Shown: piece after piece, positions 36,152 through 58,595 of the stretch
Position numbering within the stretch: position 1 is the stretch's first letter
How the letters are laid out: each line of letters begins with the position of its first letter
Source: an uncultured Nitrospira sp.
GTDB lineage: Bacteria > Nitrospirota > Nitrospiria > Nitrospirales > Nitrospiraceae
Assembly: GCA_902500715.1 (NCBI GenBank)
Contig: CABVRO010000002.1
Coordinates: forward strand, 1 to 64,000
Direction of reading: 5' to 3'
DNA: 64,000 nucleotides
Made by a program: the position numbers and the translations under genes
The notes under the pieces: model-generated
The model's database searches: none
What the model was told of the DNA's origin: nothing
Seen by the model: only the letters and a program-made list of their open reading frames with translations

Positions 36152-37531
36152 ATGAATACCATTGTCGAAGATTCCCTCCGTCGGCAGGAGCCGCTGTCAA
36201 CATGTGCCTCATGGCTGCGTGAGCATCCCATTCTCGCATCAGTAATCATCTTGCTCTGCGCGCTCTCGGTTCGACTGATCCTCACGTGGCGCGCCGACCC
36301 GGTCGAGCTGGTGTTTCCCGACTCTGGAACGTACTTAGATCCGGCGTTGAGCCTGCATGAGTCGGGATCGTTTCTGAATAAGTACCAGACCCCGGAAATC
36401 ACCCGGACGCCCGGTTATCCGCTGTTCCTTGCTACCCTCATGACTGTCTTTGGCACGGAAGTACGCGCCCTCTTGATTGCCCAGACGGTCATCGTGTCGT
36501 TGAGCGTAGTCATTCTGTATGGGTTGGCCAGACACATTCTTCCGCCGGTGATGGCATTCGCGGGAGCGTGGCTGGCCGCCGTTTCACCCTGGGGGGCAGT
36601 AAGAGCCGGTTTCCTGCTGACCGATGGGGTGTTTCTCTTGCTCTTGGTTTCATTGTTCGCTCTGATGTACGGCGTCATTCGATCTGCGCGGAGCACGGTG
36701 ATGGTCATCCTCGGCGGCAGCCTGGTCGGGCTGCTGACAAGCGCTGTGGTGCTTGTCAGACCGATCTTTCCGCTGATTCTCTTCGTCGCCGTCGTCCTGA
36801 TGTTGTTCTATCCCGATAGGCGGAGTCGCGCCTGGCTGCTGGTGGCGATGATGGTGCTCAGCGCGTTGATACCATTACATCTCTGGAAGATGCGGAACCT
36901 CCAAGAGGCGCAGTTTCATGGTTTCAGCGACGTGTCAGGGAAGGCGGCCTGGCAATGGTTAGCCTCCAGCGTGAAAGCGCAGGTTCCAGGGGCATCCGGA
37001 GATCGTTGGGCGATGCTCAAAGCCGCCGAACAGGACGAAACTCATTGGACCCTGTCGCTTCAAGAGGCCGATGACGAGCGGTGGCGATTGGCGAAAGAAG
37101 TCTTCACGGCGCATCCGTTCCTCACGGCCTATGCGTTCACGCTCAACGCAATCGAAGCCCTGATCCATCCTGAGCCGGATATCCTGGCTCCGGCGCGCTT
37201 GCGCTTCTACGGCGATACAGTCCTCTTGGGAGGGCTTTGGATGGCGTTCATCGCCTGCGCGGCCATGGGGCTATGGCATGTTTGGAATAATGCCCCAGAC
37301 GACCAGACTATCGATCGGCACTGGCTGATGGCCATGCTGTTGATCTGCTTCTCGCTCACCATGACGGCAGGGATATCGTTCGGGGCCGGGGCTCGATATC
37401 GAGTGCCGTTGGAGCCGATTGTGTCGTTGCTGGCAGGCGTTGGGCTCGTGCGACTCGCGACCGTTGTCTACGCGAATCGCCGGGCGGAATCTGGCGGCAG
37501 CAACTCCCTTCAAGTTCAGGATATCGGGTAA
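36152..37531 (+). CDS. GT-C (GT39/ArnT-like) membrane glycosyltransferase
   Basis: 459 residues with about ten membrane helices. The first periplasmic loop carries an acidic motif (VFPDSGTYLDPALSL), and TRTPGYPLFLA is characteristic of the dolichyl-phosphate-mannose/ArnT superfamily, which use polyprenyl-phosphate sugars on the outer face of the membrane. The GT2 enzyme at 46.3 kb, which resembles polyprenyl-phosphate-sugar synthases, could supply its donor. It is 74 nt after the ligase-like gene. Confidence 0.82.
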   Translation: MNTIVEDSLRRQEPLSTCASWLREHPILASVIILLCALSVRLILTWRADPVELVFPDSGTYLDPALSLHESGSFLNKYQTPEITRTPGYPLFLATLMTVFGTEVRALLIAQTVIVSLSVVILYGLARHILPPVMAFAGAWLAAVSPWGAVRAGFLLTDGVFLLLLVSLFALMYGVIRSARSTVMVILGGSLVGLLTSAVVLVRPIFPLILFVAVVLMLFYPDRRSRAWLLVAMMVLSALIPLHLWKMRNLQEAQFHGFSDVSGKAAWQWLASSVKAQVPGASGDRWAMLKAAEQDETHWTLSLQEADDERWRLAKEVFTAHPFLTAYAFTLNAIEALIHPEPDILAPARLRFYGDTVLLGGLWMAFIACAAMGLWHVWNNAPDDQTIDRHWLMAMLLICFSLTMTAGISFGAGARYRVPLEPIVSLLAGVGLVRLATVVYANRRAESGGSNSLQVQDIG

Positions 37532-56451: not shown

Positions 56452-56955
56452 ATGACGAGTCGGGAGCAGCTGATCAGAGCCAGACTTGCCATCCTTACGA
56501 TGGCGGCGGAGCTCAAGAATGTGGTGAGGGCCTGCCGGTTAGCCGGAGTGAGTCGATCTCACTTTTATGCGATGAAGAGGGCCTACGAGACGCAGGGGAA
56601 GGAGGGGTTGGCTCCGCGCGCCCGCCGGAAACCGCTGATGCCTAATCGGACCCCTGCTTCGTTGGAACGGCATATCCTCTCGAAAACATACGAGAATCCG
56701 TCTGTCAGCTATCTCAGGCTTGCGGGACAAATTCAGCTCGACGGGGTCGCCGTGACGCCTGCGATGGTTCGGTATGTCTGGCAACGGGAGAGATTATCGA
56801 CCCGTGCCGCCCGTATCCAGTGGGTCAAAATGATGGATCGGCGGAGTCGCGCGTCCGGTCTTGCGCTGACAGAGGTCGGAGAAGGAGGTGACCGTCTCCA
56901 GGTCGCTGTCAGGACAATTCCCGCCTCCGCCGGATCGAAGCGACTGTCATGGTGA
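56452..56955 (+). CDS. truncated IS481-type transposase N-terminus / HTH protein
   Basis: 167 residues. The first 120 resemble the double helix-turn-helix region of IS481/IS3-group transposases (TSREQLIRARLAILTMAAEL, VVRACRLAGVSRSHFYAMKR, YETQGKEGLAPRARRKP, VAVTPAMVRYVWQRERL). The DDE catalytic core that should follow is absent; the last 45 residues are unlike transposase. No terminal inverted repeats were seen. It is either a decayed insertion sequence or a captured DNA-binding module, and it stands directly upstream of the mini sorting protein and exosortase. Confidence 0.75.
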   Translation: MTSREQLIRARLAILTMAAELKNVVRACRLAGVSRSHFYAMKRAYETQGKEGLAPRARRKPLMPNRTPASLERHILSKTYENPSVSYLRLAGQIQLDGVAVTPAMVRYVWQRERLSTRAARIQWVKMMDRRSRASGLALTEVGEGGDRLQVAVRTIPASAGSKRLSW

Positions 56956-57017
56956 ATGCGGGTTGGTGGTGCATGTGTTCACGGGACTCGAACTAAGTAT
57001 TTGCCCTGTAATTTCTC

Positions 57018-57046
57018 TTGACGCACATGTTTCAAAACGAGACAAT
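57018..57046 (+). promoter_or_regulatory. sigma70 promoter of the mini sorting protein/exosortase genes
   Basis: TTGACG (57018-57023), 17-nt spacer, GACAAT (57041-57046), about 150 nt before the small gene. It lies downstream of the HTH gene, giving the pair its own transcription start. Confidence 0.5.
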
Positions 57047-57183: not shown

Positions 57184-57191
57184 AAAGGAGG
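57184..57191 (+). promoter_or_regulatory. near-perfect ribosome-binding site
   Basis: AAAGGAGG with 7 nt to the ATG at 57199, close to perfect complementarity with the 16S anti-Shine-Dalgarno. This decides the start of the small gene among several in-frame ATG/GTG codons and predicts strong expression. Confidence 0.8.
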
Positions 57192-57198
57192 AGTGGTG

Positions 57199-57360
57199 AT
57201 GATGATGTTGCACATGGGGAATTGGTACAACTGGATTATCGGCATTATCAATGGAGGAACGGGCAACGGTGGCTCGGTTCCTGTCCCCGGAACGTTGCTG
57301 GCGTTTGGCCTCGGCTTCGCAGCCTTTGTGGCCTGGCGGGCAAAGCGCGTGGAAGAATAG
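57199..57360 (+). CDS. 53-residue protein with PEP-CTERM-like sorting tail
   Basis: Very small protein: a 12-residue start rich in Met/Trp (MMMLHMGNWYNW), a glycine-rich middle (NGGTGNGGS) and a complete tripartite sorting signal: VPVPGT, a hydrophobic helix LLAFGLGFAAFVAW and a basic end RAKRVEE. This matches the layout of PEP-CTERM (VPEPS-T, helix, RR) with Pro-Val-Pro-Gly replacing Pro-Glu-Pro. No ordinary cleavable signal peptide is present, although IIGIING is mildly hydrophobic. It lies 266 bp before an exosortase that has an intact active site, so it is the likely resident substrate. No known function; the gene is too short for routine annotation. Confidence 0.8.
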   Translation: MMMLHMGNWYNWIIGIINGGTGNGGSVPVPGTLLAFGLGFAAFVAWRAKRVEE

Positions 57361-57383
57361 CGCCGATTCTGCCGAATGGGCTC

Positions 57384-57416
57384 GGCCGCTCGCGTGAAGC
57401 GATTCTGCGAGCGGCC
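57384..57416 (+). terminator. 10-bp stem-loop between the mini protein gene and exosortase
   Basis: GGCCGCTCGC (57384-57393) pairs perfectly with GCGAGCGGCC (57407-57416), loop 13 nt, 23 nt after the small gene's stop. No T run follows, so it may attenuate or protect the 3' end of the short mRNA rather than terminate fully. Confidence 0.45.
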
Positions 57417-57626
57417 ACCTTCAATCCTCAGTGGTTGTTCGCCGTCCGTCCTTCTGGGTATTTCCCCGCTTCTTCATGCGACACAGCTGAACGTGATAGG
57501 TCGAGCTCGTCAGGGACCTGAACAGGTCTTGGCTCTCGACCATGTGTCTCGCATGGGGAGCCGGTCTTGCGGGTGAGTCCTTGCCCCGCCGAGATACCGC
57601 TCTGTAACCATCCCTGGCGTGATGTC

Positions 57627-58595
57627 ATGAAAATAGTCGATCAGCTCTTCTCCGGGCCTGCGTGGCCTGCGCCGTCCGTGTGGCGGGAATGGCAGACGGC
57701 AGGAGCGATTCTCTCTACGGCGGCTCTCTGTATTGCCGCGCTCTTCTGGCCGACCATTCAATCGATGATCGACGTGTGGGCGAGTTCGCGAACCTTTGCT
57801 CACGGGTTCCTGGTGTTGCCGATCGTCGGGTATCTCGTCTGGTCTTCCCGTGGCCGACTGGTGTTGCTGGTGCCATCTCCCAATGCCTGGGGTGTGGCGG
57901 CTTTAGTGGGAACGGGGATCCTGTGGGGAGCGGGACGACGAGCTGATTTGATATGGCTCCAACAGGCGTCGGTCGTGGCGCTCTTACCCGGGCTGGTCTG
58001 GACGATCTATGGAACGGAAATTGTACGAAGGCTGTCCTGGCCGCTCGGGTTCCTCATCTTTCTTCTTCCCGTCGGGACGTCCCTCGAACCATGGCTTCAG
58101 GACATCACGGCATGGCTTATTCTCCGTGGCCTCGATCTGACGGGTATCGCCTATGTCTATCGAGACTACTCCATCACCGTCGGTCGGGCTGTGTGGGAAG
58201 TCGCCCCTGACTGCGGCGGGCTTCGGTATCTGCTCCCGGGCCTTTCTTTGGCCTATGCCTTCGCCGCCTTAACCTACCGGCACCCGGCTCGGCGAGTGCT
58301 GTTTCTGTTCTTCTGTGCGGTCGTCTTGATGGTCGCCAACGGTCTTCGCGCCTATGGCGTCATTGTCGGGAATCACCTCGGCATTGCGGCGGGTGCCGAC
58401 CATCGCCTGTTCAGCTACACGATCTATGGGGTAACCATGCCCTGCTTGCTCTGGCTGGGCCTCAAATGGAAACAGCGACCTGCCGCCGGCGCGGGAATGG
58501 GCTCCAGTTCCGCCGAGCGGTTCGATGCCGGTAAAGCAATCGTCGCCTCGCTCGTCGGGGTCGGCGGGTTGTTCCTCGTGCGTGTCTCCCTGTAG
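57627..58595 (+). CDS. exosortase (PEP-CTERM-processing transpeptidase-like)
   Basis: 322 residues from ATG 57627 with about eight membrane helices. The family catalytic triad is visible: Cys196 in APDCGGLRYL, Arg241 in ANGLRAYGV, His259 in GADHRLFSYT. Exosortases cleave C-terminal sorting signals at the membrane in bacteria that make exopolysaccharide. It lacks the C-terminal EpsI (DUF3485) domain that many exosortase A proteins carry, and no separate epsI gene follows; a single C-terminal helix is present instead. The neighbouring mini protein is the obvious substrate. Start chosen at ATG with GTGATGTC upstream only weakly matching a ribosome-binding site. Confidence 0.93.
   Translation: MKIVDQLFSGPAWPAPSVWREWQTAGAILSTAALCIAALFWPTIQSMIDVWASSRTFAHGFLVLPIVGYLVWSSRGRLVLLVPSPNAWGVAALVGTGILWGAGRRADLIWLQQASVVALLPGLVWTIYGTEIVRRLSWPLGFLIFLLPVGTSLEPWLQDITAWLILRGLDLTGIAYVYRDYSITVGRAVWEVAPDCGGLRYLLPGLSLAYAFAALTYRHPARRVLFLFFCAVVLMVANGLRAYGVIVGNHLGIAAGADHRLFSYTIYGVTMPCLLWLGLKWKQRPAAGAGMGSSSAERFDAGKAIVASLVGVGGLFLVRVSL

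Follow-up and report, generated by a model that had tools for sequence, protein, structure and literature searches.

An exosortase A paired with a PEP-CTERM micro-protein that lacks a signal peptide in Nitrospira

Our analysis of a 64,000 nt stretch of Nitrospira DNA (the window; the pair and its control region lie on its plus strand) revealed what is probably a dedicated exosortase-substrate pair that closes an exopolysaccharide locus. The pair consists of a 53-codon gene (57199..57360) for a PEP-CTERM micro-protein without signal peptide and of the gene for exosortase A (XrtA, 322 aa, 57627..58595), which would cut the micro-protein and pass the resulting peptide to an acceptor. An earlier note on this DNA had proposed a minimal dedicated pair, and synteny, phylogenetic profile and selection all lend good support to this idea. 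The note described both genes correctly; it did not deal with the absent signal peptide or with the regulator, promoter, dyad and hairpin presented below.

The small gene encodes MMMLHMGNWYNWIIGIINGGTGNGGSVPVPGTLLAFGLGFAAFVAWRAKRVEE and, as noticed earlier, is preceded by a good ribosome-binding site, with the Shine-Dalgarno sequence AGGAGG (57186..57191) 7 nt 5′ of ATG57199. The protein tail scored above cut-off with both PF07589 from Pfam (29.3 bits, cut-off 20.7, E 8e-7) and TIGR02595 from NCBIfam (19.5 bits, cut-off 16), which agrees with the VPVPGT motif, hydrophobic helix and basic tail previously read from the DNA; no more specific family reached its cut-off in these two collections. 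The motif, the presumed processing site, comprises residues 27-32 (57277..57294) and is followed by the transmembrane helix and basic tail (LLAFGLGFAAFVAWRAKRVEE, ending in WRAKRVEE; 57295..57357), the best-conserved region of the protein. AlphaFold predicted two helices, 3-17 and 29-52, with pLDDT values of 84-88 across residues 31-50 and low confidence in the N-terminal half. The presumed periplasmic peptide of about 30 residues is abundant in Gly, Asn and Trp, and the short forms hold 0-1 charges of each sign ahead of the motif. The description of VPVPGT as a variant motif needs to be revised, as it is unremarkable in its group. The Pro-Glu-Pro core is absent from the micro-protein, and a central Glu is missing from all 14 XrtA-linked tails of the group. 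Since other PEP-CTERM tails of the window's genome (VPAPAA, VPLPAT) also lack the Glu, the core appears to be common and not strictly required. The orthologue of genome G012 reads VSAPET and lacks the first Pro.

Five other genomes of the genus (G024, G014, G010, G012 and G002) carry short orthologues of 54-60 aa, and two more were located on contigs L063 and L065 of the Nitrospira MAG ACE_NIT7. Together with the window, these seven make up a set of eight short-form loci. In each of them the gene directly precedes that of XrtA and has kept a ribosome-binding site of the GAAAGG[AG]GG type. Most nucleotide changes among the orthologues affect the third position of a codon. The majority of pairs have a dN/dS of 0.03-0.4, and values reach 0.6 in pairs with G002. 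A chance open reading frame is ruled out by the orthologues and this codon-position bias. The earlier note had made its proposal depend on conservation at the same locus and at the level of protein, not only of DNA, and this is what we observed. All eight short forms share V27, P30 and T32 as well as most residues of the helix and tail, whereas the peptide preceding the motif differs among them in both length and sequence. In G002 (L042) this peptide is almost unrelated to the others, though the tail and the exosortase are close to those of ACE_NIT7; judging from these sequences, the cargo part of the micro-protein can change fast, and given its poor conservation in G002 the exact residues may be of little importance. 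The two ACE_NIT7 contigs, which both carry the module, are 93% identical across ~3 kb and represent either a recent duplication or mixed strains.

The start of xrtA lies 266 nt downstream of the small gene, with an alternative start possible at a TTG at position 57567. Its product matched TIGR03109 with 225.7 bits (cut-off 208) as well as PF09721. The codons for the catalytic residues are found at 58212-58214 (Cys196), 58347-58349 (Arg241) and 58401-58403 (His259). These residues, reported as intact before, do not vary across the 12 relatives that were aligned. A search of our PDB copy returned no solved structure related to this exosortase profile, and plasmid-borne XrtA matches showed identities of 29-37% only.

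Of 29 genomes of the genus, 10 encode this XrtA, and it is additionally present in G029 and G036. Including two from ACE_NIT7 we obtained 14 loci, 13 of which have a readable upstream neighbour (the contig of G013 ends inside xrtA). All 13 testable loci of the XrtA clade, the window counted, have a PEP-CTERM gene directly upstream, and none of the 19 genomes of the genus without this XrtA yielded a short-form gene. It is nevertheless conceivable that the micro-protein merely adjoins xrtA and that the enzyme also serves other PEP-CTERM proteins of the genome, so that the pair is not exclusive. The window's genome does encode such proteins (C69 and C38 above cut-off, C35 below), several genomes carry a second or third exosortase together with other PEP-CTERM proteins, and cross-recognition between exosortases is possible; exclusivity within the cell is for this reason not proven. 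Genomes without this XrtA, however, keep their large PEP-CTERM genes and have other exosortases close by, and large PEP-CTERM genes of the genus are often situated within a few kb of other exosortases (G024 C7, G018 C6, G010 C9, G023 C1). At the inspected top-scoring other XrtA loci of the phylum, moreover, no short PEP-CTERM neighbour was detected within 1.5 kb, which rules out a small PEP-CTERM gene as a general XrtA feature; two of these other loci (L072, L073) have a PEP-CTERM protein of ~220 aa upstream. In the 100% complete genome G014 the micro-protein is the sole PEP-CTERM match above cut-off, with a second exosortase present. On balance we regard a merely adjoining, shared substrate as unlikely and favour the dedicated pair. 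Two further observations concern the window's genome: a contig end truncates a third exosortase, which has an extra C-terminal region (G000:C98:1-1122, L124), and downstream of the gene for the 794-aa PEP-CTERM protein on C69 (L125) a TPR-like lipoprotein begins, possibly PrsT.

Several cis elements around the small gene are conserved in all eight short-form loci. The promoter is sigma-70-like (TTGACG-17-GACAAT, 57018..57046), with the same hexamer positions and 17-nt spacing in each locus, and G029 has a similar one. No second promoter-like site and no known RNA element were found between 56900 and 57700, and sigma-54/PrsR control as in Proteobacteria was rejected, the conserved block being sigma-70-like. 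Upstream of the promoter is a dyad, AACTA-AG-TAgTT (AACTAAGTATTT here, also written AACTAAGTAGTT; 56991..57002), which we consider a putative operator. In a panel of 61 genomes, all six with the short form contain a single copy, and the other 55 genomes yielded two unrelated matches, one of them (G025) apparently within a coding region. On the 3′ side of the stop codon a GC-rich hairpin (57384..57416) shows compensatory changes at three pairs. It has no T run, and a canonical terminator was not found after the small gene.

Just upstream of the dyad, a gene at 56452..56955 encodes a protein of 167 aa that has the DNA-binding N-terminus of an IS481-type transposase but lacks the catalytic domain; the IS481 model gave 62 bits (cut-off 224) over profile positions 2-113 of 284. 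The protein and its orthologues (162-172 aa) are found as a single copy in the same place in all eight short-form loci and in G029, and only in those genomes, with a dN/dS of ~0.15 that indicates purifying selection. The helix-turn-helix region is shared with IS481-family transposases, whereas full-length members elsewhere in the genus, with 34-38% identity and as many as five copies (in G001), differ from this single-copy, syntenic and selected protein in retaining the catalytic domain. From these sequence comparisons it looks like a domesticated DNA-binding protein and putative local regulator. Its position and co-occurrence with the dyad lead us to guess that the dyad is its binding site, and the transposase-derived protein may control the small gene.

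In all eight short-form loci an in-frame stop lies no more than nine codons upstream of the start, so that no signal peptide can be encoded there, and these stops rule out an overlooked upstream signal peptide. The first eight residues of the short forms contain no Lys or Arg, and an AxA site is absent. Signal peptides were described for 97% of PEP-CTERM proteins (PMC1569441), and according to a later paper they are always present (PMC3237569). The three other PEP-CTERM proteins read in the window's genome have signal-peptide-like N-termini as well. The micro-protein is thus an unusual variant among PEP-CTERM proteins.

In five less closely related loci (G029, G036, G022, G019 and G021) the PEP-CTERM proteins upstream of XrtA are ~76-135 aa long and have a typical Sec signal peptide. 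In the exosortase tree the eight short-form loci form one clade (support 100/99) beside the loci with the signal-peptide form. G029 resembles the short-form loci in its transposase-derived neighbour, similar promoter and exosortase, while its PEP-CTERM gene keeps the signal peptide; because of these shared features this gene is very probably an orthologue of the short form. On the evidence of these comparisons the short form most likely arose once, by losing the signal peptide and part of the body. That this loss left a decaying remnant, no longer translocated or processed, appears highly improbable: the signal peptide and much of the body seen in the longer proteins of these five loci are indeed gone, but dN/dS is low, the frame is free of stops in eight loci, and the ribosome-binding site, promoter and hairpin are conserved. 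G021 has two tandem short PEP-CTERM genes with signal peptides (VPIPST, VPIPAT) before xrtA (L051:3025-4117), the second of which encodes a protein very rich in Asn, Gly and Trp.

The pair is surrounded by genes for a Wza-like exporter, an ABC-2 transporter, glycosyltransferases, sugar aminotransferases and a sugar-phosphate transferase. The micro-protein has both an exosortase in the same genome and exopolysaccharide genes nearby, and the exporter, transporter and sugar enzymes make an envelope glycan or lipid a natural acceptor candidate. The polysaccharide locus also includes a 459-aa protein (36152-37531) without a Pfam match at E 1e-5.

For topology, cleavage, acceptor and regulation we infer the following scheme. 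The micro-protein would be a single-span membrane protein that has lost its Sec signal peptide, whose N-tail, short and with hardly any charge, passes through the inner membrane, probably via YidC or Sec, while the basic WRAKR stays inside. An N-out orientation is favoured by the positive-inside rule, given the 0-1 charges of each sign before the motif, and an N-tail with at most one acidic and one basic residue would suit YidC- or Sec-mediated transfer; translocation of the motif without a signal peptide is, however, not assured. A precedent for this topology is the coat protein of phage Pf3, which is very short, spans the membrane once in N-out/C-in orientation and is inserted by YidC without a signal peptide; it is neither homologous to the micro-protein nor a sorting substrate. 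Cleavage by XrtA, at VPxP[G/E]T or after it, would follow, and the enzyme would hand the periplasmic peptide of ~30 residues to an acceptor, a lipid or glycan that the genes around the pair produce or export. If more substrate than enzyme is needed, a promoter of its own, a strong ribosome-binding site and a hairpin ahead of XrtA are what one would expect for the small gene. We are considerably less confident of the scheme in its most specific form, in which a self-inserting N-out micro-protein is the sole XrtA substrate and its peptide caps or anchors the polysaccharide or lipid of the locus under control of the domesticated transposase DNA-binding domain; this is put forward as a tentative possibility.

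The absence of both the signal peptide and the Glu of the PEP core, a tail that is the most conserved part of the protein and strict pairing with one exosortase might also point to a membrane partner or pseudo-substrate that occupies the tail-recognition site of XrtA and regulates or stabilises the enzyme. This role, however, is at odds with the invariant V, P and T of the processing site and with the orthologous upstream genes of five sister loci, which encode ordinary-looking secreted PEP-CTERM proteins. The own promoter and the hairpin further suggest an output out of step with the enzyme. We therefore consider a pseudo-substrate improbable, and retain the reading of a substrate that is cut by XrtA.

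Dedicated systems in which one sorting enzyme has one target next door are exemplified by XrtE/VPEID-CTERM. A single GlyGly-CTERM target beside a rhombosortase likewise forms a dedicated sorting system (PMC3237569), which resembles the Nitrospira pair in its combination of one sorting enzyme with one adjacent target and differs from it in enzyme family. The PEP-CTERM/EpsH (exosortase A) system (PMC1569441) shares with the Nitrospira pair the tripartite tail, the Cys/Arg/His exosortase and the exopolysaccharide locus. Its typical targets are larger, with a median of eight per genome, and are under sigma-54/PrsR control in Proteobacteria (PMC1569441, Haft et al. 2006), whereas the Nitrospira target has 53-60 aa, no signal peptide, a position adjoining the enzyme and a sigma-70-like promoter. 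The Nitrospira pair is not a new kind of system. It stands out from an ordinary PEP-CTERM target by its size, by the absence of a signal peptide and by a strict pairing that comes with a conserved control region, and it looks like the smallest natural enzyme-substrate pair of the exosortase pathway.

The short form suggests that the signal peptide, described as universal in the PEP-CTERM class, can be lost. To our knowledge, neither the acceptor nor the exact site of cleavage is settled for bacterial exosortases. With a natural full-length substrate of 53-60 residues, matched one-to-one to its enzyme, synthesis, labelling and tracking by mass spectrometry are feasible and would allow direct tests of cleavage site and acceptor. 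In another genome, a separate short PEP-CTERM protein with a signal peptide and the canonical motif VPEPSS was found near a different exosortase (a 386-aa frame; L120, G008:C1:282500-286000), and these two genes are perhaps an independent dedicated pair.
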